Source: Desulfatitalea sp.
GTDB lineage: Bacteria; Desulfobacterota; Desulfobacteria; Desulfobacterales; Desulfosarcinaceae
Reading direction: 5' to 3'
Assembly (NCBI GenBank): GCA_013041835.1
Contig: JABDRH010000630.1
Coordinates: forward strand, 1 to 12,448
Length of the DNA: 12,448 nt
In this document: in pieces, positions 1,474 through 12,448 of the stretch
Layout of the letters: each line of letters begins with the position of its first letter
How positions within the stretch are numbered: position 1 is the first letter of the stretch
Program-made: the position numbers and the translations under genes
Notes under the pieces: model-generated
Database searches by the model: none
The model's input: the letters and a program-made list of their open reading frames with translations, nothing else
Told to the model about the DNA's origin: nothing

Positions 1474-1935
1474 ATGCCCAACTGGGTCGACGAAGTAGAA
1501 CCCATGACCTTTAAAGGCCAGATCGCGGTTCCCTACACATGGTGGGTAGGAGACACCGGCAGCCGATTTTTAGAGGCCATTCGGGATCAAGCAACATTTC
1601 TCGGGACGCGATGCCCTGATTGCGATACCGTCTATGTCCCCCCCAGGAAAAATTGCGGCCGCTGTTTCACCGCCCTGGATCAATGGGTCGAAATAGCACG
1701 TCGAGGTGTCGTCACAGCCTTCACCATCGTGCGCGCGAACCATCCGCTGCAGCCGGTCAAAAGCCCATTCGCCTATGCCTTGATCCGGTTGGACGGCGCC
1801 AGCGTAAGTATACTCCACCTCATCACCAAGGACCTGGCCAGACTGTCGATCGGTGTGACCGTCGAGGCCCATTTCAAGGAAGCGTCTCAGCGAACAGGCC
1901 ATATCCTTGACATCGATCATTTTCAAATCATCTGA
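1474..1935 (+). CDS. DUF35 Zn-ribbon/OB-fold protein, partner of thiolase-like protein 1
   Basis: Predicted 153 residues. DUF35 proteins are small subunits that bind thiolase-fold proteins; known pairs include BbsA with BbsB in anaerobic toluene degradation and the DUF35 domain of ChsH2 with Ltp2 in steroid side-chain cleavage. The rubredoxin-like ribbon has Cys47, Cys50, Cys61 and Cys64 in a CX2CX10CX2C pattern with the family-typical VYVPPR between. The OB-fold follows (ALIRLDGA near the middle, DIDHF at the end). The ATG at 1474 is chosen because AGGAG (1461-1465) sits 8 bp before it; a TTG at 1447 would be in frame but lacks a comparable site. It opens the plus-strand cluster, 15 bp before thiolase 1, and probably shares its transcript. 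Cytoplasmic. The exact reaction partner is inferred from adjacency. Confidence 0.9.
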   Translation: MPNWVDEVEPMTFKGQIAVPYTWWVGDTGSRFLEAIRDQATFLGTRCPDCDTVYVPPRKNCGRCFTALDQWVEIARRGVVTAFTIVRANHPLQPVKSPFAYALIRLDGASVSILHLITKDLARLSIGVTVEAHFKEASQRTGHILDIDHFQII

Positions 1936-1950
1936 GGCGGGAGAACCGAC

Positions 1951-3093
1951 ATGGATAACATCGCGATTATCGGTCTGGCGCAGACCCGATACGAACGGCG
2001 CAAGAAAGACAAGATTTTCCTGGATCTCGTCTATGAAACAACCACCGCCGCCCTGGACGATGCAGGGTTGACCATCGATGACATCGACAACGTCGTGACC
2101 GTTTCCAATGATTTCTTCGACGGCCGCACCATTTCGGGAATGGCTGTAGGTGACGCTGCAGGGGCCTATGATAAAAACATCTCCACGGTGGAAGGGGACG
2201 GCGCCTTCGGCGCCATGTACGGCGCCATGAGGGTGCTCGGCGGCGCCGGGACCACCCTGGTGGTGGCCCACTGCAAAGGCAGCGAAGGCGATACGGCCAC
2301 CATTACAAATGGCATGTTCGATCCCATCTACCAGCGCCATTTGGGGATTAACGCCGTGACGTCGTCGGCAATCCAGGCCAACGCCTATCTGCACCGCTAC
2401 GGAATCACGGAGCAAGACATTGCCATGGTGTCGGTCAAAAACCACGGCAATGCCAAGAACAATCCCTTTGCTCAGTTGCCCATGGACATTTGCGTTGACG
2501 ATGTGATGACTTCCAAAAAAATTGCCGACCCGTTGAAACTTCTCGATTGCAGCCCCGTCAGCGATGGGGCTGCGGCCATCATCATTGCCGATGAGAAAAC
2601 CGCCGGCCGCGCCGCAAAGCCGCCGGTGTGGATCAAGGGCATGGCCCATTGCGCGGACGAATACTTTCTGGGAGACCGGGATTTGACCAACCCCAGATCC
2701 TTGCGCCAGGCGGCCCAGAAAGCGTATGCCATGGCCGGCATCACCGATCCGTTCAAAGAGATCCATGTGGCGGAGATTTACGAGGCCTTCACCTACATGG
2801 AGCCTTTGTGGCTCGAAGGATTGGGGTTCTGCGAACCGGGACAAGGCCCAAGCCTGCTCAAGGACGGCGTAACGACCATGGACGGGCGGCTGCCCGTGAA
2901 TCCGTCGGGAGGAGTCTTGTCCGCTCACGCGGTTCTCGTTGCCGGGTTGGCCCGGATCATCGAAATCGCCGAGCAACTCAGGGACACGGCCGGCGCTCGT
3001 CAAGTCACCGGCGCCGGGATGGGACTGGCCCACGGTATCAATGGCCCTTGTGGTCAGAGCCACTGTGTCTGGATTCTAAGCAAAGAGAAATGA
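1951..3093 (+). CDS. Thiolase-fold protein 1 (SCP2/lipid-transfer type), apparently lacking the nucleophilic Cys
   Basis: 380 residues, the normal length for an SCP2-type thiolase. Family signposts include VPVNPSGG-like VNPSGG (316-321), the NP-containing loop KNNPFAQL near 170, and GFCEPGQGP (292-300). Where thiolases have the nucleophile in VEN-A-C-A-S-G, this protein reads VEGDGAFG (80-87), so Gly84 appears to replace Cys. The NEAF/HDCF position is YEAF (277-280). His is kept in SAHAV (His326), and GPCG is at 365-368. This pattern argues against ordinary thiolysis and fits a repurposed enzyme such as an Ltp2-type retro-aldolase, acting on a CoA thioester with the DUF35 protein encoded 15 bp upstream. 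The motif alignment was done by eye. A GGCGGGAGAA ribosome site precedes the ATG. Confidence 0.9.
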   Translation: MDNIAIIGLAQTRYERRKKDKIFLDLVYETTTAALDDAGLTIDDIDNVVTVSNDFFDGRTISGMAVGDAAGAYDKNISTVEGDGAFGAMYGAMRVLGGAGTTLVVAHCKGSEGDTATITNGMFDPIYQRHLGINAVTSSAIQANAYLHRYGITEQDIAMVSVKNHGNAKNNPFAQLPMDICVDDVMTSKKIADPLKLLDCSPVSDGAAAIIIADEKTAGRAAKPPVWIKGMAHCADEYFLGDRDLTNPRSLRQAAQKAYAMAGITDPFKEIHVAEIYEAFTYMEPLWLEGLGFCEPGQGPSLLKDGVTTMDGRLPVNPSGGVLSAHAVLVAGLARIIEIAEQLRDTAGARQVTGAGMGLAHGINGPCGQSHCVWILSKEK

Positions 3094-3102
3094 GAGGGCA
3101 AA

Positions 3103-4263
3103 ATGCCGCAACGCGTTGCGATCGTCGGTACCGGCCAGACCGACCATAAAAGCCATCGGCCGGATGTCAACCAAAGGGAAATGATAAACGAAGCCGTGGT
3201 TCGGGCGCTTGAAGATTGCGAGATGACCATCCGCGATATCGACGCCATCATCATCGGCAATATGGACCATTTTGAATCCATCAACTATGTCGACACCTGG
3301 TCGGTGGAAGGTTCCGGCGGCGTCATGAAACCGATCATGAAGATCACGACAGGCGGCACCACCGGCGCGTCGGTCGCCATTGCCGCATACTATCACGTGG
3401 CTTCCGGTCTTTTCGACAAAGTCCTTGCCATTGGATGGGAAAAGAATTCGGAAAGCGATACAACGGCGGCCATTGTTACCTGTAGTGATCCCGTATGGGA
3501 CCGTTTTTCCTACTCGGGCGCCATCCCGAGCTTGGCTTCGGAAGCCAGCGCCTATATGGAGCAATACGGAGCGACGCAACACGATGCCGCCCGGGTGGCG
3601 GTCAGGGATCGCAAAAACGCCATGAACAATCCCCATGCCCATCTTCGAAAACCGGTGACCATCGAAGATGTGATGGCTTCGCCCATGCTGGCCTACCCGG
3701 TCAAACTCGGCGATGTCTGCCCGCGAACGGACGGCGCCTGCGCCGTGGTGCTGGCCGCCGACGGCATCGCCCAAAAAGTGACCCCCAGGCCGGCGTGGTT
3801 TGTCGCCAGCGCCGTCCGCCACACCTATACCTGGTTCGGCGATTCTACCGATTACGACCAAGGGCTGGTCTCTTTGAAGAATGCTTCGCGCGAGGCGTAT
3901 CAAAAAGCCGGGATCCGGAATCCCGCCGATGAACTGGACGTCGCCGAGCTTTATCTGCCCTACACCTATGCAGGCCTGAAGTACATCGAAGCATTGGATT
4001 TTTGCGCGCCGGGCCATGGGCCCCGGTTTGTCGCGGACGGCCACACGGAAATCGACGGCAAAATTCCGGTCAACCCCTCCGGCGGCGTTATCAGCACCAA
4101 CTGTATCGGCGCGACAGCGCTACTCCGCGTGGCCGAAGCCGCGATTCAGATCATGGGCAAAGGTGGCAAGCGTCAAGTGCATGGCGCCAACCTGGCCCTG
4201 GCGACGGGGTTCGGCGGATGCTTCTGGTCCGACGTTGTACTTCTTTGTGGTGACCGCCCCTGA
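3103..4263 (+). CDS. Thiolase-fold protein 2 (SCP2/lipid-transfer type), apparently lacking the nucleophilic Cys
   Basis: 386 residues, starting 9 bp after thiolase 1 with GAGAGGG before the ATG, so almost certainly co-transcribed. The nucleophile segment reads ITTGGTTG (81-88), placing Gly85 at the catalytic Cys. The NEAF-equivalent is YLPY (284-287). The canonical GHP of the C-terminal loop is TNC (332-334) within VNPSGGVISTNCIGA, so the catalytic His also appears lost. The segment HVASGLFDKVL (98-108) and the TNCIGA loop are shared with thiolase-like protein 3 at the right edge, making those two closer paralogs of each other than of protein 1. Likely partner: the DUF35 protein 69 bp downstream. 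The chemistry is uncertain: a retro-aldolase, a Claisen-type condensing or cleaving enzyme, or a non-catalytic subunit are all possible. Confidence 0.9.
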   Translation: MPQRVAIVGTGQTDHKSHRPDVNQREMINEAVVRALEDCEMTIRDIDAIIIGNMDHFESINYVDTWSVEGSGGVMKPIMKITTGGTTGASVAIAAYYHVASGLFDKVLAIGWEKNSESDTTAAIVTCSDPVWDRFSYSGAIPSLASEASAYMEQYGATQHDAARVAVRDRKNAMNNPHAHLRKPVTIEDVMASPMLAYPVKLGDVCPRTDGACAVVLAADGIAQKVTPRPAWFVASAVRHTYTWFGDSTDYDQGLVSLKNASREAYQKAGIRNPADELDVAELYLPYTYAGLKYIEALDFCAPGHGPRFVADGHTEIDGKIPVNPSGGVISTNCIGATALLRVAEAAIQIMGKGGKRQVHGANLALATGFGGCFWSDVVLLCGDRP

Positions 4264-4332: not shown

Positions 4333-4812
4333 ATGGCACATGAGTACGAGAACCACGCCCCGATGACCATGCGGATGGAAACCCCCATGCCGTACGAGTG
4401 GTCGATAGGCAAGTATGGCAGCCGCTTTTTCCAGGAAATCAGGGAGAAAAATCAATTTATCGGCATCCGTTGTCCGGGATGCGGCAAAGTCTACATCCCG
4501 CCCCGGCGGGTCTGCGGCCCTTGCTTCAAGGAATTGGATGAGTTGGTTGAACTGCCCAATCAAGGCGCCATTACCGCCTTTTCCATCGTCAATTACCCGT
4601 TCATCGACCCAAACACGGGAATTCAGCGCCCCATTCCGTATACCTATGGATATATCCGCATTGACGGCGCGGATAATATCTTTTCGCACATCATCGATGA
4701 AACGGATGAGAACAAAATCAAGGTTGGCATGCGCGTCAGGGCCGTCTTCAAAGAGAAAGACGCCATGCAAGGACACATCAATGATATCAAACACTTTGAA
4801 ATCGTGGACTGA
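4333..4812 (+). CDS. DUF35 Zn-ribbon/OB-fold protein, probable partner of thiolase-like protein 2
   Basis: 159 residues. The Zn ribbon has Cys47, Cys50, Cys61 and Cys64 (CX2CX10CX2C, with VYIPPR between), and an OB-fold follows (GYIRIDGA, then GMRVRAVF and DIKHFEI). The N-terminal helix SIGKYGSRFFQEIREK matches the segment by which the family packs on its thiolase partner. The start is supported by GGGAGAA about 6 bp upstream. It closes the plus-strand cluster, giving a mirrored order DUF35-thiolase-thiolase-DUF35. No clear terminator follows. Its role is inferred from BbsA and ChsH2(DUF35): it probably helps organise substrate access and CoA binding in the thiolase-fold partner. Confidence 0.9.
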   Translation: MAHEYENHAPMTMRMETPMPYEWSIGKYGSRFFQEIREKNQFIGIRCPGCGKVYIPPRRVCGPCFKELDELVELPNQGAITAFSIVNYPFIDPNTGIQRPIPYTYGYIRIDGADNIFSHIIDETDENKIKVGMRVRAVFKEKDAMQGHINDIKHFEIVD

Positions 4813-5954: not shown

Positions 5955-6593
5955 CTAAAGACCTAAAGACCTGCCTTGACTATCCCCAATGTTGGGTTGA
6001 TTTTTCAAACGGAGATGTTCTTGCTGTTTGAAAGAAATCTTTTTTTTTCTTGAAACCATCCATCCAATCATTCCGGAACCGAGCAGCAAAACAGCACCTG
6101 GCACCGGGACCGGCGTGTATTCACCCAAAAGCACGCTCTTATCAATCCATAACCGATCGGTCCCATTGGTGGTTTCGCTGAGCGTTAACTCAAGTGACCA
6201 CGATTCGCCGCTTAACAGGGTTAGCAAATTGGCCGGGACAACAAATTCTTGATCAACCCAATCTGAATTCGAATCGCCTAATTTTCCAATTAAATTATTT
6301 CCCGAATCCGCCAGCAGCCACAGCCTGCCGTTGTCGCTACCGGAATTGCCGTAATGTGACAATGTCATCACAGCGCCCGTAATCTCCGCTGCAGGTGGAT
6401 TGAAGCTGACATCATGAGAATAGTCGAATTCAAATGGTGACCCGCTGCCATTGAGCAATATAGCGTCACGTCCCTTTTTCACACTGCCGGTCCACTCGAC
6501 CGTGTCCTCAAAAAAATATGCATTTGCGGCCCCGGGAGCCGTCAGGGATATGCAAAACACTAACAAAAAGGCAGCTTTTCTCATATTCCTCAT
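5955..6593 (-). CDS. PEP-CTERM sorting-domain surface protein
   Basis: 212 residues, predicted to be exported and anchored or processed by the exosortase system. A signal peptide is visible: basic MRNMRK, a hydrophobic stretch, and a likely cleavage after AANA (residue 25). The mature part is rich in Ser, Asn, Gly and Asp and looks like a beta-sandwich exoprotein. Near the C-terminus are VPVPGA (162-167), a hydrophobic helix and a basic RKKK cluster (182-185), the VPxPGA variant of PEP-CTERM. Unusually, 27 further residues follow the basic cluster, and that junction is encoded by a run of nine A (6040-6048 on the complement). A second ATG at 6584 is possible as the start. No exosortase gene is in the window. 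The gene is convergent with the nuclease-like gene and unrelated to the CoA genes. Confidence 0.82.
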   Translation of the reverse strand: MRNMRKAAFLLVFCISLTAPGAANAYFFEDTVEWTGSVKKGRDAILLNGSGSPFEFDYSHDVSFNPPAAEITGAVMTLSHYGNSGSDNGRLWLLADSGNNLIGKLGDSNSDWVDQEFVVPANLLTLLSGESWSLELTLSETTNGTDRLWIDKSVLLGEYTPVPVPGAVLLLGSGMIGWMVSRKKKISFKQQEHLRLKNQPNIGDSQGRSLGL

Positions 6594-6932: not shown

Positions 6933-6935
6933 TTA
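6853..6935. repeat. Paired inverted palindromic repeats (REPIN-like), downstream of the dehydrogenase
   Basis: TTTTATGCGC (6872-6881) and GCGCATAAAA (6897-6906) form a 10-bp perfect stem, extended inward by AACC/GGTT after one mismatch, around a 5-nt loop. The right half (6897-6935) matches 37 of 39 positions of the repeat at 8877-8915. The left half (6853-6881) is a more diverged inverted copy. The repeat ends on the TAA stop codon (6933-6935) of the acyl-CoA dehydrogenase, so it forms the 3' untranslated region of that gene and could act as a stabiliser or terminator. Confidence 0.7.
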
Positions 6936-8741
6936 GTCATCGAAAAGGGCTGCACTTGCTTCAACGGTCAATCCATCATTTTGGCGCAGCCTTATTTCCA
7001 GGCCGTTGATTTTGGGCAGCTCATAGGCGTAGTAGAATTGCAGCGTCGTCATCTTCCCATTGTAAAAGCGTTCATCCTTGGCACTGCATTTGTCATTCAG
7101 GGCGCTTTGAAGGGCGACTCCCTGCACCAACCACTGCCAGGCGATACAAATGATGCCGAAGTATTCCAGGTACAAGGTCGCGTCGGCCAGGTAAGTCTCA
7201 TCACCTTTTTCCAGGCGCACCTTGTGAAGGTGATCGGTCAAGCCAGATAAGCGCGACATGGCATCCTTCAACGGATCGGCGTACGGGATAAGGTTTGAAT
7301 AGCCGCGGGCGGCCGTGATGGTTTTTTCGACCTCATCGAAATAGAGCCGGATGGCGCGGCCATTGTTCATGACCACTTTGCGGCCCAGAAGATCCATGCC
7401 GTGGATGGCCGTGGTGCCTTCATGGATGGGGTGAATGCGACAGTCCCGGTAGTATTGCTCCAAGGGATAATCGTCGCAGAACCCGGAGCCGCCGAAGCAT
7501 TGAAGGCCCTGGCTGATGGAAAGAATCCCCATTTCGGATGGATAGGTCTTCAAAACGGGGGTCAAAAGATCGAGAAGCAAGCCATAGGGTTCGGTATCCG
7601 CGTGCCCATTGAGCGCTTTTTCCATGTCCACGTACTTGCTGCATTGCATGGCCAAAGCAAGGGCGCCTTCAACGATCGCCCGTTGGAAAAAAAGCATCCG
7701 TTTAACATCGGCATGCTCGATGATGGCCACCTGCGGCAAGGCGGGATCCTTTTGTCCGGTCTTGCGGCCCTGCTTGCGCTCCTTGGCGTATGCCAAGGAG
7801 GCGTAATACGCCGCGGTCGCCATGGCCGTCGCGCCGAGGCCGACGCCGATGCGTGCTTCGTTCATCATCTGGAACATGTATCGAAGGCCATGGTGCGGCT
7901 CGCCCACCAAATAGCCCCGGCAGGCGTCATTATCGCCGAAACTCAGTTGGGCGATGGGGCATCCCCGATAGCCCAATTTATGATACACGCCCGAGGTGTT
8001 GACATCATTGAAGGTAAGCGTTCCGTCATTTTCCACGCGTTTTTTAGGCACCACGAAAAGTGAGATGCCCTTGACCCCTGCAGGTGCGCCATCGATCTTG
8101 CCCAGCAATAAATGCACGACATTGTCCACGGCGTCGCTGTCGCCGGCGGAGATAAAAATCTTTTGGCCTCGGATCTGGTAGTGCCCGTCGCCGGTGGGCG
8201 AGGCTGTCGTGGTGATATCGGAAAGGGAACTGCCGGCCTCGGGCTCGGTGAGGGCCATGGTGCCTTGCCAGATGCCCTCTCTTAATTTCGGCACGTACCG
8301 GTCGTAAAGCGCCTTGCTGCCGAAGCTCTCGATGAGCCGTGCGGCGCCGTCGCTCAGTCCCGGGTAGGCGGCGGCCGAATAGTTGGCCGCCATAAAGATG
8401 AACTGGCAGGCATTGGCGATCATCAAAGGAAGCTGTTCGCCATCCAGGTCATAAGGGACGATCGTGGAGATCCAGCCGCCGCCACCGAATTCCCGAAGGA
8501 TTTTCCTCACATCGGCGTGCACCTTTATCGTGCCGTCCCGCAGTTCCGGGGGCTCGCGGTCCATCTGCTCAAATATCGGCCATAAAAGGTCCCTGGCAAT
8601 TTTGCCCGCCGATTTGAGCACCAGATCGAAACTCTTCCGGTTGTGCGCTTCATAGTAATTGTATTGGGTCAAGGCGTTCACATCAAACGCTTCATACAAC
8701 AAGAATTTCAGATTGCGTTCGCTGTAGAATTTTTTTGCCAT
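6933..8741 (-). CDS. Acyl-CoA dehydrogenase, FadE5-like with C-terminal extension
   Basis: 602 residues, longer than the ~380-400 of short/medium-chain acyl-CoA dehydrogenases and typical of the FadE5/AcdA-like group with an extra C-terminal domain. It would oxidise an acyl-CoA to the 2,3-enoyl-CoA using FAD and pass electrons to an electron-transfer flavoprotein. The flavin/substrate segment MALTEPEAGSS is at 162-172. The catalytic base is Glu441 in IHEGTTAIHGMDLLGRK, equivalent to the YEGT motif. QCFGGSGFCDDYPLEQYYRD upstream is the usual flavin-contact region. The extension after about residue 470 carries helices rich in Tyr and Leu. The ATG has AAGGAGA (8754-8748) about 6 bp upstream; this ribosome site touches the end of the repeat element that separates it from the MaoC gene. 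It is the last gene of the minus-strand cluster. Substrate unknown. Confidence 0.94.
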   Translation of the reverse strand: MAKKFYSERNLKFLLYEAFDVNALTQYNYYEAHNRKSFDLVLKSAGKIARDLLWPIFEQMDREPPELRDGTIKVHADVRKILREFGGGGWISTIVPYDLDGEQLPLMIANACQFIFMAANYSAAAYPGLSDGAARLIESFGSKALYDRYVPKLREGIWQGTMALTEPEAGSSLSDITTTASPTGDGHYQIRGQKIFISAGDSDAVDNVVHLLLGKIDGAPAGVKGISLFVVPKKRVENDGTLTFNDVNTSGVYHKLGYRGCPIAQLSFGDNDACRGYLVGEPHHGLRYMFQMMNEARIGVGLGATAMATAAYYASLAYAKERKQGRKTGQKDPALPQVAIIEHADVKRMLFFQRAIVEGALALAMQCSKYVDMEKALNGHADTEPYGLLLDLLTPVLKTYPSEMGILSISQGLQCFGGSGFCDDYPLEQYYRDCRIHPIHEGTTAIHGMDLLGRKVVMNNGRAIRLYFDEVEKTITAARGYSNLIPYADPLKDAMSRLSGLTDHLHKVRLEKGDETYLADATLYLEYFGIICIAWQWLVQGVALQSALNDKCSAKDERFYNGKMTTLQFYYAYELPKINGLEIRLRQNDGLTVEASAALFDD

Positions 8742-8752
8742 GCAGAGTCTCC

Positions 8753-8915
8753 TTAGGGTTCACGCAAAAATAAATTTACATTCTTAGGTGTTGAGGCGCT
8801 CACCCGGCAAGGCACAAAATTTAAAGAATATCGAGATATTCTGTATTTTTGTAACGCAGCCGGGTGAGATGGATCGGCGCATAAAAATGTGACGTTATTT
8901 TTGCGCGAGCCCTTA
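8753..8915. repeat. 163-bp MITE/REPIN-like inverted-repeat element between MaoC and dehydrogenase genes
   Basis: The ends are 36-bp inverted repeats (8753-8788 and 8880-8915) identical at 28 of 36 positions. Inside are two perfect palindromes: CTCACCCGGC (8799-8808) with GCCGGGTGAG (8859-8868), and AGAATATC-GA-GATATTCT (8825-8842). The whole can fold as one long stem. The right end overlaps the MaoC TAA stop (8913-8915) and the left end overlaps the ribosome binding site of the dehydrogenase. There is no coding capacity, so it is a non-autonomous element or a structured intercistronic RNA. The right arm is nearly identical to the repeat at 6897-6935. Confidence 0.75.
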
Positions 8916-9371
8916 CGTCACCGGCTTCCTTCCGGATAGCAGGCGGGCAATGAACGTCACCACGGTTTCTTCTTTTTGGTTCATGGTTTTATATTCGTAG
9001 ACGACAATCCCCCTGGCTTCGTCTTTTTCGATAAGCTCGACCACCTCGACTTGGGTGCGGATCGTGTCTCCTATTGTGCATGGCGCGGTGAATTTCACGG
9101 ACTCCATGCCATAGAAGGCAATAAAGCTTTTGGGTGTGATCACATGAAGCCCGAGCCTGAAAGGCAGCGCCAAGCCAATGCTCAGGGTCAGCATGCCATG
9201 CGCGATCCGTTCTCCGAAATTACTGTTTTGGGCATATTGCACATCCGTGTGCAGCGGGTGCCAATCTCCGGTCAATGCCGCATACGCGTGAATATCCGAT
9301 TCGGTCACCGTTCGCGCGGGCGATACGAACGTTTCGCCGACCCGATAATCTTCAAAATATTCTTTTTCCAT
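8913..9371 (-). CDS. MaoC-type hot-dog (R)-enoyl-CoA hydratase
   Basis: 152 residues from the chosen start. The single hot-dog fold protein would add water to a 2-enoyl-CoA, the step after the dehydrogenase. The hydratase motif is visible: TGDWHPLHTD with candidate catalytic Asp36 and His41, followed by FGERIAHGML (52-61), the usual MaoC signature. I chose the ATG at 9371 because GGGGA (9381-9377) lies 5 bp upstream; an in-frame ATG at 9383 would add four residues (MGTN) but has no clear ribosome site. It lies 86 bp after the CrtC-like gene and its stop codon is inside the repeat element that precedes the dehydrogenase gene. In steroid side-chain degradation an equivalent hydratase prepares the substrate for an Ltp2-DUF35 aldolase, a useful parallel here. 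Confidence 0.9.
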   Translation of the reverse strand: MEKEYFEDYRVGETFVSPARTVTESDIHAYAALTGDWHPLHTDVQYAQNSNFGERIAHGMLTLSIGLALPFRLGLHVITPKSFIAFYGMESVKFTAPCTIGDTIRTQVEVVELIEKDEARGIVVYEYKTMNQKEETVVTFIARLLSGRKPVT

Positions 9372-9457
9372 GTTCGTCCCCATGATGTCGTGTTGTCCGC
9401 GCGAAATTTTGCGGCCTATGGATCATCTGCCTGGTATCCGGTTTGCCCGTCACGTGC

Positions 9458-10490: not shown

Positions 10491-10955
10491 TTATCCGACC
10501 GGTTCGAAATGGTCGATATCCAACATGGTCCCTTTGGGGTCGCGGTTGAATACCGGTCGCATTCTCATCCCGATCTTCAGCGCGTCGTAATCCACGCCGC
10601 CGATCAGATGCGCCATGCCGCTGCCGGCACCGTCGAGCCGGATCACGCCGTAAATCAAGGGCCCCTTTTTGGGGTGTACCGGTTCCTCGTATGCAATTCG
10701 GGTAAAGGTTTCCAGCGTGCCTTCAGGTCCGATGACCACCAGGTCTTTCTCCCCGAGCATGGAAAAACACCGCCCGCAGGTAGATCGGGGCGGCCAATAG
10801 ACTTTGTCGCAGGTCTCGCACCTTACCCCGGTGATTTTCCGTTCTTTGCCGAGAAGCTCGTAGAATCGGCCGCCGATCTGTCCCACGTAGTACCTGCACT
10901 TGGCGACAATTTGCTGGTCCACTTCAAAGGGACCGTAAGTGTCCTGCTGCGTCAT
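10491..10955 (-). CDS. DUF35 Zn-ribbon/OB-fold protein, the unpaired fourth copy
   Basis: 154 residues. The Zn ribbon has Cys46, Cys49, Cys60 and Cys63 (CX2CX10CX2C, with VYWPPR between), and the OB-fold carries GVIRLDGAG, GMRMRPVF and DIDHFEPV. Of the four copies it shares the CGRCF ending of the ribbon with the first (1474-1935). The ATG has AAGGAGA about 6 bp upstream. It follows another DUF35 gene, so two DUF35 genes lie in tandem next to only one visible thiolase-like gene. Its partner could be a thiolase-fold protein elsewhere, or the tandem pair could form a heteromeric complex with protein 3. It is translationally coupled to the CrtC-like gene downstream. Confidence 0.9.
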   Translation of the reverse strand: MTQQDTYGPFEVDQQIVAKCRYYVGQIGGRFYELLGKERKITGVRCETCDKVYWPPRSTCGRCFSMLGEKDLVVIGPEGTLETFTRIAYEEPVHPKKGPLIYGVIRLDGAGSGMAHLIGGVDYDALKIGMRMRPVFNRDPKGTMLDIDHFEPVG

Positions 10956-11043: not shown

Positions 11044-11532
11044 TCATCCCTCGATGGGATCAAAGTAGAGAATATCGCTCAAATCGCCAATCCGATCTTG
11101 CTTTGGCCGCAACACCACTCGCACGCGCATGCCGATCTTGATGGTTTCCAGGTTGGCAGCCGGGTTGATCATGTGGTCGACCCCGGAATCGCATCCATCC
11201 AGTTTCACGGTGCCGTAGGCAAACGGCGGTTGATGCGGTTTGCCGGTCGTCGGGTCGGTCAACGGCATGTGCATCGTGGTAAACCCTTTGAGCACACCCT
11301 CATTGCCCAGTTCGACCCAGGTTTCATTTTTCACGTGGCACACGGCGCAAACCACCCTCGGCGGAACTTGCACCCGCCCGCAAGCCGGACACTGAATACC
11401 ATAAAAGACGCCATTATCGCGCATTTCAATCAAAAACTTCGATAGGTATTTTCCGGCCGCGAACCGATATGGCACATCCACGGTGATGGGTATGTTGGGT
11501 GACTCCTTTTTGAAATCTTGGCCCGGCATCAT
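11044..11532 (-). CDS. DUF35 Zn-ribbon/OB-fold protein, partner of thiolase-like protein 3
   Basis: 162 residues from the chosen start. Zn-ribbon cysteines are at 48, 51, 62 and 65 (CX2CX10CX2C, with VQVPPR between), followed by an OB-fold (YGTVKLDGCDSG, GMRVRVVL, DILYFDPIEG). The second half of the ribbon reads CAVCH, different from the CGxCF of the other three copies. AGGA lies 4 bp before the ATG at 11532 and 7 bp before the adjacent ATG at 11529, so either may be used; a GTG at 11547 is also in frame. The gene begins about 30 bp after the thiolase-like gene, consistent with one transcript and a physical pair like BbsA-BbsB. Confidence 0.88.
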   Translation of the reverse strand: MMPGQDFKKESPNIPITVDVPYRFAAGKYLSKFLIEMRDNGVFYGIQCPACGRVQVPPRVVCAVCHVKNETWVELGNEGVLKGFTTMHMPLTDPTTGKPHQPPFAYGTVKLDGCDSGVDHMINPAANLETIKIGMRVRVVLRPKQDRIGDLSDILYFDPIEG

Positions 11533-11560
11533 TTTTTCCTTTCTCACCCCTTGCGATCGA

Positions 11561-12448
11561 TTAATCGTCCGTACTGTCCGAGAGCGCCACCAGGACTGTC
11601 CAGTTCGTGCCTCCGTAAGCGGTGGTCAAAGCTCTGCGCACGTTCCTGGGAATCTGGTGACCGCCGGCGTCCCCACGGATCTGCAGTGCAGCCTCCCAGA
11701 CCCGGAGCATCGCCGAGGCGCCGATACAGTTGGTGGCCAAAACGCCGCCGGAAGGATTGACTGGAATAGGACCATCAATCTGTGTTTTTCCCGCTTCGAT
11801 GAGTTTGTACCCCTGGCCCGGACCACACAACCCCAGATCTTCGTACCACACCAGTTCAGCCCAGGTGGCCGGTTCATATACCTCAAACACGTCAAAGTAC
11901 TCAACGGGATGGGTCACCCCCAGCTTTTTGTATATGCGACCGGCCGAGGTCTTTGAAAAGATGGGTCTTGTGGTGGCGACATCCCGCCAATCATATTCAA
12001 ACTGCTCATTGTGGGCCGTATCCATGGCGCGTATCCAGACGGGATGCTTGCATCGATCCCGAGCCGTTTTCTCATCGCTCAGAATCATGGCGCATGCCCC
12101 GTTGGAGGCCGGACACATGTCCAAGAGACGGATGGGATATGCGAGCATGCGTGAGTCGAGCACATCTTGTATATCAATATCGAGCTTGAGATGGGCGTAT
12201 TGGTTCTTTCGGGCGTTTTGCCTGGACTTGACCGCCACCATCGCGGAATGCTCTTCCTTGGCGCCATGAACCGCCATGTAGGAGGCGCCCATCATGGCAA
12301 AGTAGCCCACCGCGGCGCCGGCCATGGACCGGCCGAACAGCGGATGGGCCACGCCACTAAGTATGGCGCCCGTATCCCCCTCTTCCTGTTTTTCGAACCC
12401 GATGCAAAGCACTTTGTCGAAAAGACCGCTGGCCACGTGGTGCGCGCC
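11561..12448 (-). CDS. Thiolase-fold protein 3 (SCP2/lipid-transfer type), N-terminus cut by window edge
   Basis: 295 C-terminal residues are visible; about 90-100 N-terminal residues, including the nucleophile region, lie beyond the right edge. The visible part starts near HVASGLFDKVL, which is the same sequence as in protein 2 (98-108). The NEAF-equivalent is YEPA, GLCGPGQGY follows, and the C-terminal loop reads VNPSGGVLATNCIGA, so the usual GHP is TNC as in protein 2. The C-terminus (AYGGTNWTVLVAL) lacks the Cys-X-Gly of classical thiolases. It is the first visible gene of the minus-strand cluster, followed by its probable DUF35 partner. It is a close paralog of protein 2, suggesting duplication between the two clusters. 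Whether its active-site Cys is present cannot be seen here. Confidence 0.9.
   Translation of the reverse strand, partial: GAHHVASGLFDKVLCIGFEKQEEGDTGAILSGVAHPLFGRSMAGAAVGYFAMMGASYMAVHGAKEEHSAMVAVKSRQNARKNQYAHLKLDIDIQDVLDSRMLAYPIRLLDMCPASNGACAMILSDEKTARDRCKHPVWIRAMDTAHNEQFEYDWRDVATTRPIFSKTSAGRIYKKLGVTHPVEYFDVFEVYEPATWAELVWYEDLGLCGPGQGYKLIEAGKTQIDGPIPVNPSGGVLATNCIGASAMLRVWEAALQIRGDAGGHQIPRNVRRALTTAYGGTNWTVLVALSDSTDD

Follow-up and report, generated by a model that had tools for sequence, protein, structure and literature searches.

Paired cysteine-less thiolase-fold proteins between two DUF35 genes in Desulfatitalea: a putative heteromeric aldolase

The window analysed here is a whole contig of 12,448 nucleotides from Desulfatitalea sp. 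(JABDRH010000630.1, assembly GCA_013041835.1; 4.32 Mb in 693 contigs, 86.9% complete). On its + strand lies a run of four genes in which two adjacent thiolase-fold proteins, here termed A and B, are enclosed by two DUF35 genes, D1 and D2, and both A and B have Gly where thiolases have their nucleophilic Cys. A second Cys-less pair, A'B', starts at the right contig end. Three alignment columns serve as signature positions below, namely those of the thiolase Cys, the His of the HDCF motif and the His of the GHP motif. The features of the D1-A-B-D2 unit are:

1474..1935, + strand: D1, DUF35 protein (zinc ribbon and OB fold) that opens the unit; Pfam OB_ChsH2_C and zf-ChsH2 above cut-off
1951..3093, + strand: A (P1), Cys-less thiolase-fold subunit of 380 residues; Thiolase_N and Thiolase_C_1 above cut-off, predicted model, trees
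2200..2202, + strand: Gly84 of A (GGC codon), aligned with the thiolase nucleophile
2779..2781, + strand: Tyr277 of A (YEAF), aligned with the thiolase HDCF His and Ltp2 Tyr294
2926..2928, + strand: His326 of A, aligned with the thiolase GHP His
3103..4263, + strand: B (P2), Cys-less thiolase-fold subunit of 386 residues, proposed to be catalytic; Thiolase_N and Thiolase_C_1 above cut-off, predicted model
3355..3357, + strand: Gly85 of B (ITTGGTTG; GGC codon), aligned with the thiolase nucleophile
3952..3954, + strand: Tyr284 of B (YLPY), aligned with Ltp2 Tyr294 and CtSal Tyr302, proposed catalytic base
4099..4101, + strand: Asn333 of B, aligned with the GHP His
4333..4812, + strand: D2, the other DUF35 protein, closing the unit; Pfam OB_ChsH2_C and zf-ChsH2

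At the nucleophile site A reads VEGDGAFG (residues 80-87) and B reads ITTGGTTG (residues 81-88), and an earlier note on this DNA had placed Gly84 and Gly85 on the catalytic Cys. The alignments bear out this register: HMMER sets both residues, ungapped, on the Cys of 6esq, and Gly85 of B also on that of 7yvy and 7pxp (against these two A has gaps beside the motif, and Gly84 is not placed on the Cys); BLAST pairs Gly84 with Gly85 when A is aligned with B (34% identity over 377 columns); and in MAFFT alignments the Cys column holds both glycines. A different Cys serving as nucleophile, which the earlier note had named as a finding that would overturn its reading, was looked for and rejected, there being none near this position in A (Cys residues 108, 181, 200, 234, 294, 367 and 372) or in B (39, 127, 206, 213, 301, 334, 373 and 382); Cys367 and Cys372 are kept in A and are absent from four A' rows. 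The predicted models of A (predicted local distance difference test score, pLDDT, 93.9; predicted template modelling score, pTM, 0.94) and B (88.7 and 0.91) are good thiolase folds, which match 6esq over 373 residues at 1.6 Å and over 378 residues at 1.9 Å respectively, in a comparison made with solved structures, the placement of the glycines resting on the sequence alignments. Intact reading frames, the confidence of the models and the conservation of residues, among them the glycines, rule out gene decay, as the earlier note had also held. Of what characterizes a thiolase, the nucleophilic Cys is missing from both proteins, and the His residues of HDCF and GHP are both replaced in B and reduced to one of two (His326) in A. 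Nine PF22691 matches were found in the genome of the window; four of them (two at L011, one each at L013 and L014) retain the Cys, and the remaining five are A, B, a pair on contig C524 and one copy cut ahead of the Cys site.

Searching the named genome collection with A matched 143 stretches; 98 of these were relatives, and the best 80 (54-73% identity) were kept. By NCBI name these belong to Actinomycetota (27), Thermodesulfobacteriota (19), Myxococcota (13, a label drawn from names like 'Deltaproteobacteria bacterium' and probably a naming artefact), Spirochaetota (7), Chloroflexota (3), Pseudomonadota (2), and Hydrogenedentota, Elusimicrobiota and an archaeon, Candidatus Methanolliviera (1 each), with six assigned to no phylum. 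Record titles identify 78 of the 80 as metagenome-assembled genomes, the isolate chromosomes being those of Desulfosarcina widdelii PP31 (L064) and D. alkanivorans PL12 (L084), and the names suggest that the hosts are mainly anaerobes. The spread of B among the kin of the window is patchy: in 39 other kin genomes, among the matches listed, four have 62-65% identity to B and one (G029) has 46%, the other genomes reaching at most 42%, save for one match of 44% over 80 residues. Several genomes encode multiple adjacent thiolase-like pairs, counted by match positions as five in L035, five in L082 and six in L020, which is indicative of an expanded family.

The order DUF35-A-B-DUF35 on one strand is found in 68 of 81 A loci, the window included; the 13 incomplete units all end at contig or locus ends (nine after A, three after B and one before A), and no deviating gene order was seen among the 81. 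B adjoins A in each of the 72 loci whose sequence extends far enough. The flanking proteins form two DUF35 classes, with all 136 proteins of the 68 full units nearest to one of their own position, and 66/68 D1 and 68/68 D2 proteins retain a complete CxxC..CxxC zinc ribbon. Distance correlations between the families (0.88 for A-B and B-D2, 0.83 for A-D1 and A-D2, 0.80 for B-D1 and 0.77 for D1-D2) are in line with joint inheritance but are no proof of contact; the four products may form a stable four-part complex, with D2 on B. No literature title or abstract on such a unit was found by a search that covered few subscription papers. The same arrangement could be explained by a pair of homodimeric aldolases that work independently on successive substrates, each with a DUF35 protein of its own. 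This would account for the Gly and Tyr present in both window proteins and for each subunit adjoining a DUF35 protein of its own class, and it has a structural precedent in CtSal, which PMC12329534 describes as a central dimer between two DUF35 domains, and likewise in TcLtp2 (PMC11321319). However, two self-sufficient enzymes sit poorly with the adjacency of B to A in 72/72 loci, and also with the pattern of residues in the two families.

Signature residues were counted in rows of at least 50% identity to A (n = 81) and at least 45% to B (n = 74, including L019_2472 and L021_498, which gene order makes B'), after removal of open reading frames (ORFs) of 250 residues or fewer (cut copies, for example L049 and L057), the duplicate loci L001-L010 and the distant L076_12574 (501 residues). 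Cys-type thiolases show Cys/His/His in all ten rows compared. All 74 B rows show Gly/Tyr/Asn; B' has Tyr and Asn in 9/9 rows and Gly in all eight that reach that site, and 15 further B-type rows all have Gly and Asn, with Tyr in 13 (His in L101, Phe in L109). In the 81 A rows, the nucleophile site is occupied by Gly in 80 and Ser in one, the HDCF-His site by Tyr in 73, Leu in six, Cys in one and Phe in one, and the GHP-His site by His in 56, Asn in 24 and Gln in one; the six rows with Leu for Tyr all have Asn in place of His, as if one active site had been given up. A' has Gly in eight rows and Ser in one, two being cut or gapped, and Tyr in none of 11; further A-type rows, Haloterrigena left out, have Tyr in 3/14, and PRK07937-type rows, whose Cys position has no clear register, have lost it in 4/6. 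Moreover, seven of nine A-type ORFs from loci of aerobic type are just 303-355 residues long, and their B partners retain Gly/Tyr/Asn. By these alignments, the loss of the Cys is real, common to several phyla and maintained. Because Gly/Tyr/Asn is invariant in B and parts of it are lost across the A lineages, B is, on this residue record, the constant subunit and A its drifting partner. The loss of Tyr from A' and from most PRK07937-type proteins beside B partners that keep all three residues, along with the short A-type ORFs, again speaks against two homodimers. Another alternative, that A and B are thiolase-fold proteins without catalytic function that bind lipids or serve as scaffolds, would be in keeping with the absence of the Cys, with the lack of both His residues in B and with the SCP2 lipid-transfer domains fused or nearby, but the Gly/Tyr/Asn of 74/74 B rows would be unexpected without catalysis, and we consider this explanation highly improbable.

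The main tree, obtained by a quick search on 26 of the 81 A and 26 of the 74 B rows with Shimodaira-Hasegawa-like approximate likelihood ratio test (SH-aLRT) support, rooted on 6esq and with Sal absent from its rows, unites A and A' with PRK07937-type rows (support 80), B and B' with PRK08313-type rows (92), and these two sides with each other (99). A tree without the PRK07937 loci gives 98 for the A side, 97 for the B side and 98 for their union, and in both trees Ltp2, together with L035_4659, branches outside the A+B clade; with plasmid rows added, the support of the A side is only 33 and that of the B side 84. The B' of the window clusters with the B' proteins of L017, L020 and L027 in the main tree. 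PRK07937 proteins above cut-off are present in 12 of 119 genomes of the phylum of L082 (presumably Actinomycetota), and at six PRK07937 loci each PRK07937-type gene lies beside a DUF35 gene of 313-352 residues and a B-type gene (6/6). Pfam detects two OB stretches in all three tested DUF35 proteins of these loci and also in that of Streptomyces L107, and the longer proteins look like D1 and D2 fused. The B-like proteins score 753 and 762 bits with PRK08313 at two loci and 713 at L107 (cut-off 514), that of Rhodococcus L106 remaining below with 375. Window A reaches 183.5 bits against a PRK07937 cut-off of 419 and window B 358.4 against the PRK08313 cut-off of 514, and since both scores are below the cut-offs we speak of relatives, not members, of these families. 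Adjacent thiolase-like pairs with a DUF35 gene are also found on Rhodococcus, Streptomyces, Simplicispira and Haloterrigena plasmids; L110, which carries no annotation, was set aside. We take PRK07937 to be Ltp4 and PRK08313 to be Ltp3, with which sizes and adjacency agree. Ltp3-Ltp4 is called a 'heteromeric aldol-lyase' cutting C24-C25 of branched sterol side chains in a review (PMC6678751), and ltp3 and ltp4 have consecutive locus tags and are both termed aldol lyases in PMC6593523. The description as heteromeric adds to the case against two homodimers, which we regard as unlikely.

Based on these observations we propose, with fair though not strong confidence, that A and B are the unlike subunits of one heteromeric, Cys-independent thiolase-fold acyl-coenzyme A (CoA) aldolase (aldol-lyase), probably assembled as D1-A-B-D2, with the active site probably in B and A as a partner. 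That there is one two-subunit enzyme is proposed because gene order and tree point there. The earlier note had seen in A and B retro-aldolases, or otherwise repurposed proteins, rather than thiolases: the lack of a nucleophilic Cys, the Tyr in place of the HDCF His and the DUF35 gene beside each agree with this, and we too infer a retro-aldolase activity. Its likening of them to Ltp2 as two separate enzymes is not supported as it stands, given a gene order and a tree that indicate one two-subunit enzyme in a clade apart from Ltp2, with the signature invariant in B only. Our proposal has to reckon with two observations that weigh against it, namely that the PRK07937-type A partners did not all lose Tyr, just four of six having done so, and that both subunits of the Haloterrigena pair fall on the B side of the tree. 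In the mechanism we envisage, a beta-hydroxyacyl-CoA would be made by a MaoC-type hydratase, the Gly85 region of B, in the place of the nucleophile, would give space for the beta-hydroxyl group, and Tyr284 of B would remove the hydroxyl proton. Cleavage of the C-alpha to C-beta bond would follow, releasing a ketone or aldehyde and leaving in the thiolase oxyanion holes an acyl-CoA enolate, which would then be protonated, perhaps with assistance from Asn333 or solvent. A would complete and shape the cleft, possibly providing a second site in many genomes but not all, and the DUF35 proteins would staple the assembly together, as they do in Ltp2-ChsH2 and Sal-Shy. Such an enzyme could shorten CoA esters that are bulky or branched in cases where no beta-keto intermediate can be formed, or provide an aldolytic route to an aldehyde.

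The remaining features of the window include a − strand group that reaches the right contig end and consists of the cut B', two DUF35 genes and genes for a CrtC-like protein, a MaoC hydratase and an acyl-CoA dehydrogenase:

2-1258: acyl-CoA ligase, cut by the left contig end; Pfam AMP-binding, 284.5 bits
5096-5758, + strand: protein of 220 residues between the two gene groups, without a Pfam or NCBIfam match
5955-6593, − strand: protein whose tail is probably a PEP-CTERM sorting signal; Pfam score 20.3 bits, slightly below the cut-off of 20.7
6933..8741, − strand: acyl-CoA dehydrogenase of 602 residues; Pfam Acyl-CoA_dh domains
8913..9383, − strand: MaoC-type enoyl-CoA hydratase; Pfam MaoC_dehydratas, 98 bits
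9458..10480, − strand: CrtC-like protein; no Pfam family, weak NCBIfam CarotHydtaseCrtCRhod match (30.5 bits, cut-off 400)
10491..10955, − strand: second DUF35 protein of the A'B' unit (Pfam)
11044..11547, − strand: DUF35 protein of the A'B' unit (Pfam)
11561..12448, − strand: B', B-type subunit of the second pair, N-terminally truncated at the contig end; Tyr encoded at 11876-11878 and Asn at 11729-11731

The MaoC hydratase of this group could supply the beta-hydroxyacyl-CoA. Homologues of the CrtC-like protein adjoin A'B' in 4/80 loci; it is possibly a partner enzyme and might hydrate isolated double bonds. Neighbours of the 80 loci, which are of unequal length, were grouped by one clustering at 30% identity, with families named from representatives and the hydratase and hydroxyacyl-CoA dehydrogenase clusters named by sight. 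Enoyl-CoA hydratases occur in 19 loci, acyl-CoA dehydrogenases, each of two acyl-CoA ligase clusters and ordinary thiolases in 14 each, hydroxyacyl-CoA dehydrogenases in 13, MaoC proteins and CoA-transferases in eight each, Fe-alcohol dehydrogenases in seven and beta-keto acid cleavage enzymes (BKACE) in six. Genes for aldehyde ferredoxin oxidoreductase are present in ten loci from three phyla, and the genome of the window has five matches elsewhere and none in the window; this link is suggestive only. Overall, the neighbourhoods are in line with a degradation of hydrophobic CoA esters that gives an aldehyde or a keto product, and they point to no particular substrate. A carboxylation route for beta-methyl substrates, of the geranyl-CoA carboxylase type, was also considered and set aside: regular expressions for two simple motifs, the biotin site and the biotin-carboxylase loop, matched no ORF above 100 residues in the loci scanned, L001-L010 left out, which is weak evidence.

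Beside A'B', we observed fusions of an SCP2 sterol-carrier domain with a ChsH2-type zinc ribbon and of a DUF35 with a BKACE domain (L081:2841-5473 and L074:2186-4806), which, by analogy with Shy-Sal, may tether successive enzymes. These fusions, together with the BKACE-cluster genes in 6/80 loci, could be cited for a different Cys-independent step, be it an aldol condensation of an aldehyde with an acyl-CoA, the decarboxylation of a beta-ketoacyl-CoA or malonyl-CoA, or a reaction linked to that of BKACE, and PMC12329534 reports very slow malonyl-CoA decarboxylation by TbSLP, which has an active site of the CtSal type. The same paper reports no such decarboxylation by CtSal, and the neighbours are chiefly catabolic (acyl-CoA ligases, dehydrogenases and hydratases), so that we attach a rather low probability to these steps. 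A conserved protein of about 290 residues is encoded directly downstream of the unit in 13/80 loci (L052:10798-11673, L081:10788-11690 and others), with no Pfam match in two copies tested and no NCBIfam match in one. In Candidatus Methanolliviera (L035:4659-7911) an Ltp2-like protein (Gly/Tyr/His), a DUF35 gene and an HpaB-family protein follow the DUF35-A-B-DUF35 unit.

Returning to the heteromeric aldolase, such proteins carry the label thiolase or acetyl-CoA acetyltransferase in database records, and pathway reconstructions may mistake them for a part of thiolytic beta-oxidation. Should they be aldolases, many microbes that are anaerobic by name, including sulfate reducers, syntrophs, spirochaetes, some actinobacteria and one archaeal assembly, would have an aldolytic means of shortening branched or ring-bearing acyl-CoAs. 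More tentatively, and with some doubt on our part, one might envisage a large uncharacterised family of obligate two-subunit Cys-free aldolases, in which one subunit serves as the enzyme while its counterpart is degenerating into a non-catalytic partner, as in ketosynthase/chain-length-factor pairs; anaerobes would have several copies for the aldolytic breakdown of branched or polycyclic lipids, and some DUF35 proteins, fused to BKACE or sterol-carrier domains, would hold successive enzymes together. Which of the two subunits is catalytic could be tested directly on this unit, as could the way in which a thiolase becomes an aldolase and its twin a partner.

In comparison with known systems, the benzoylsuccinyl-CoA thiolase BbsAB (7pxp/7pyt) differs from A and B in possessing the Cys, the HDAF/HDCF His and the GHP His, as does the archaeal acetoacetyl-CoA thiolase found with 3-hydroxy-3-methylglutaryl-CoA synthase (6esq) in possessing the Cys and both His. 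The acyltransferases PhlABC, CsATase and MucABC resemble the unit in having a thiolase-fold subunit within a multi-component complex, PhlABC with a DUF35 subunit, but are distant (18-26% identity to B); CsATase can be said to have Cys at the nucleophile site because one of its chains is a C88S variant. A different way of being Cys-less is seen in ST0096 of Sulfolobus tokodaii (PDB 4yzo), with DNTSGSGG at the nucleophile and HD and GHP kept. Closer are Ltp2-ChsH2 (TcLtp2, PDB 6ok1) and Sal-Shy (CtSal, PDB 9myr), which have in common with the unit the thiolase fold, Gly for the Cys, Tyr for the HDCF His and a DUF35 partner, A-B being flanked by two DUF35 genes. PMC12329534 gives Tyr302, the catalytic base, and Cys304 as essential in CtSal, excludes thiolysis on account of its Gly in place of the thiolase Cys, and names Tyr294 as base and Tyr344 as proposed acid of TcLtp2. 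By alignment, the Tyr of the 6ok1 motif YDHF is residue 294, in the same column as Tyr277 of A and Tyr284 of B, whereas the column of Tyr344 differs from one alignment to another. Judged by the motifs, the place of Sal Cys304 is taken by Ala279 in A (YEAF) and Pro286 in B (YLPY), so that neither has the His or Cys carried by YDHF and YDCY. Furthermore, these known complexes have one kind of aldolase subunit, and A and B lie outside the Ltp2 clade.

The actinobacterial Ltp3-Ltp4 system for C24-branched sterol side chains, which we equate with PRK08313 and PRK07937, shares with the unit adjacent unlike Cys-less thiolase-fold subunits and DUF35, the same two lineages and the Gly/Tyr/Asn of the B type. 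The window differs from it in having two separate flanking DUF35 genes instead of one longer gene and a full-length A (380 residues) whose family mostly keeps the Tyr, and the hosts of window-type units are mainly anaerobic by name. These likenesses suggest that the A/B enzyme is akin to Ltp3-Ltp4 and to enzymes that shorten the branched side chains of sterols.

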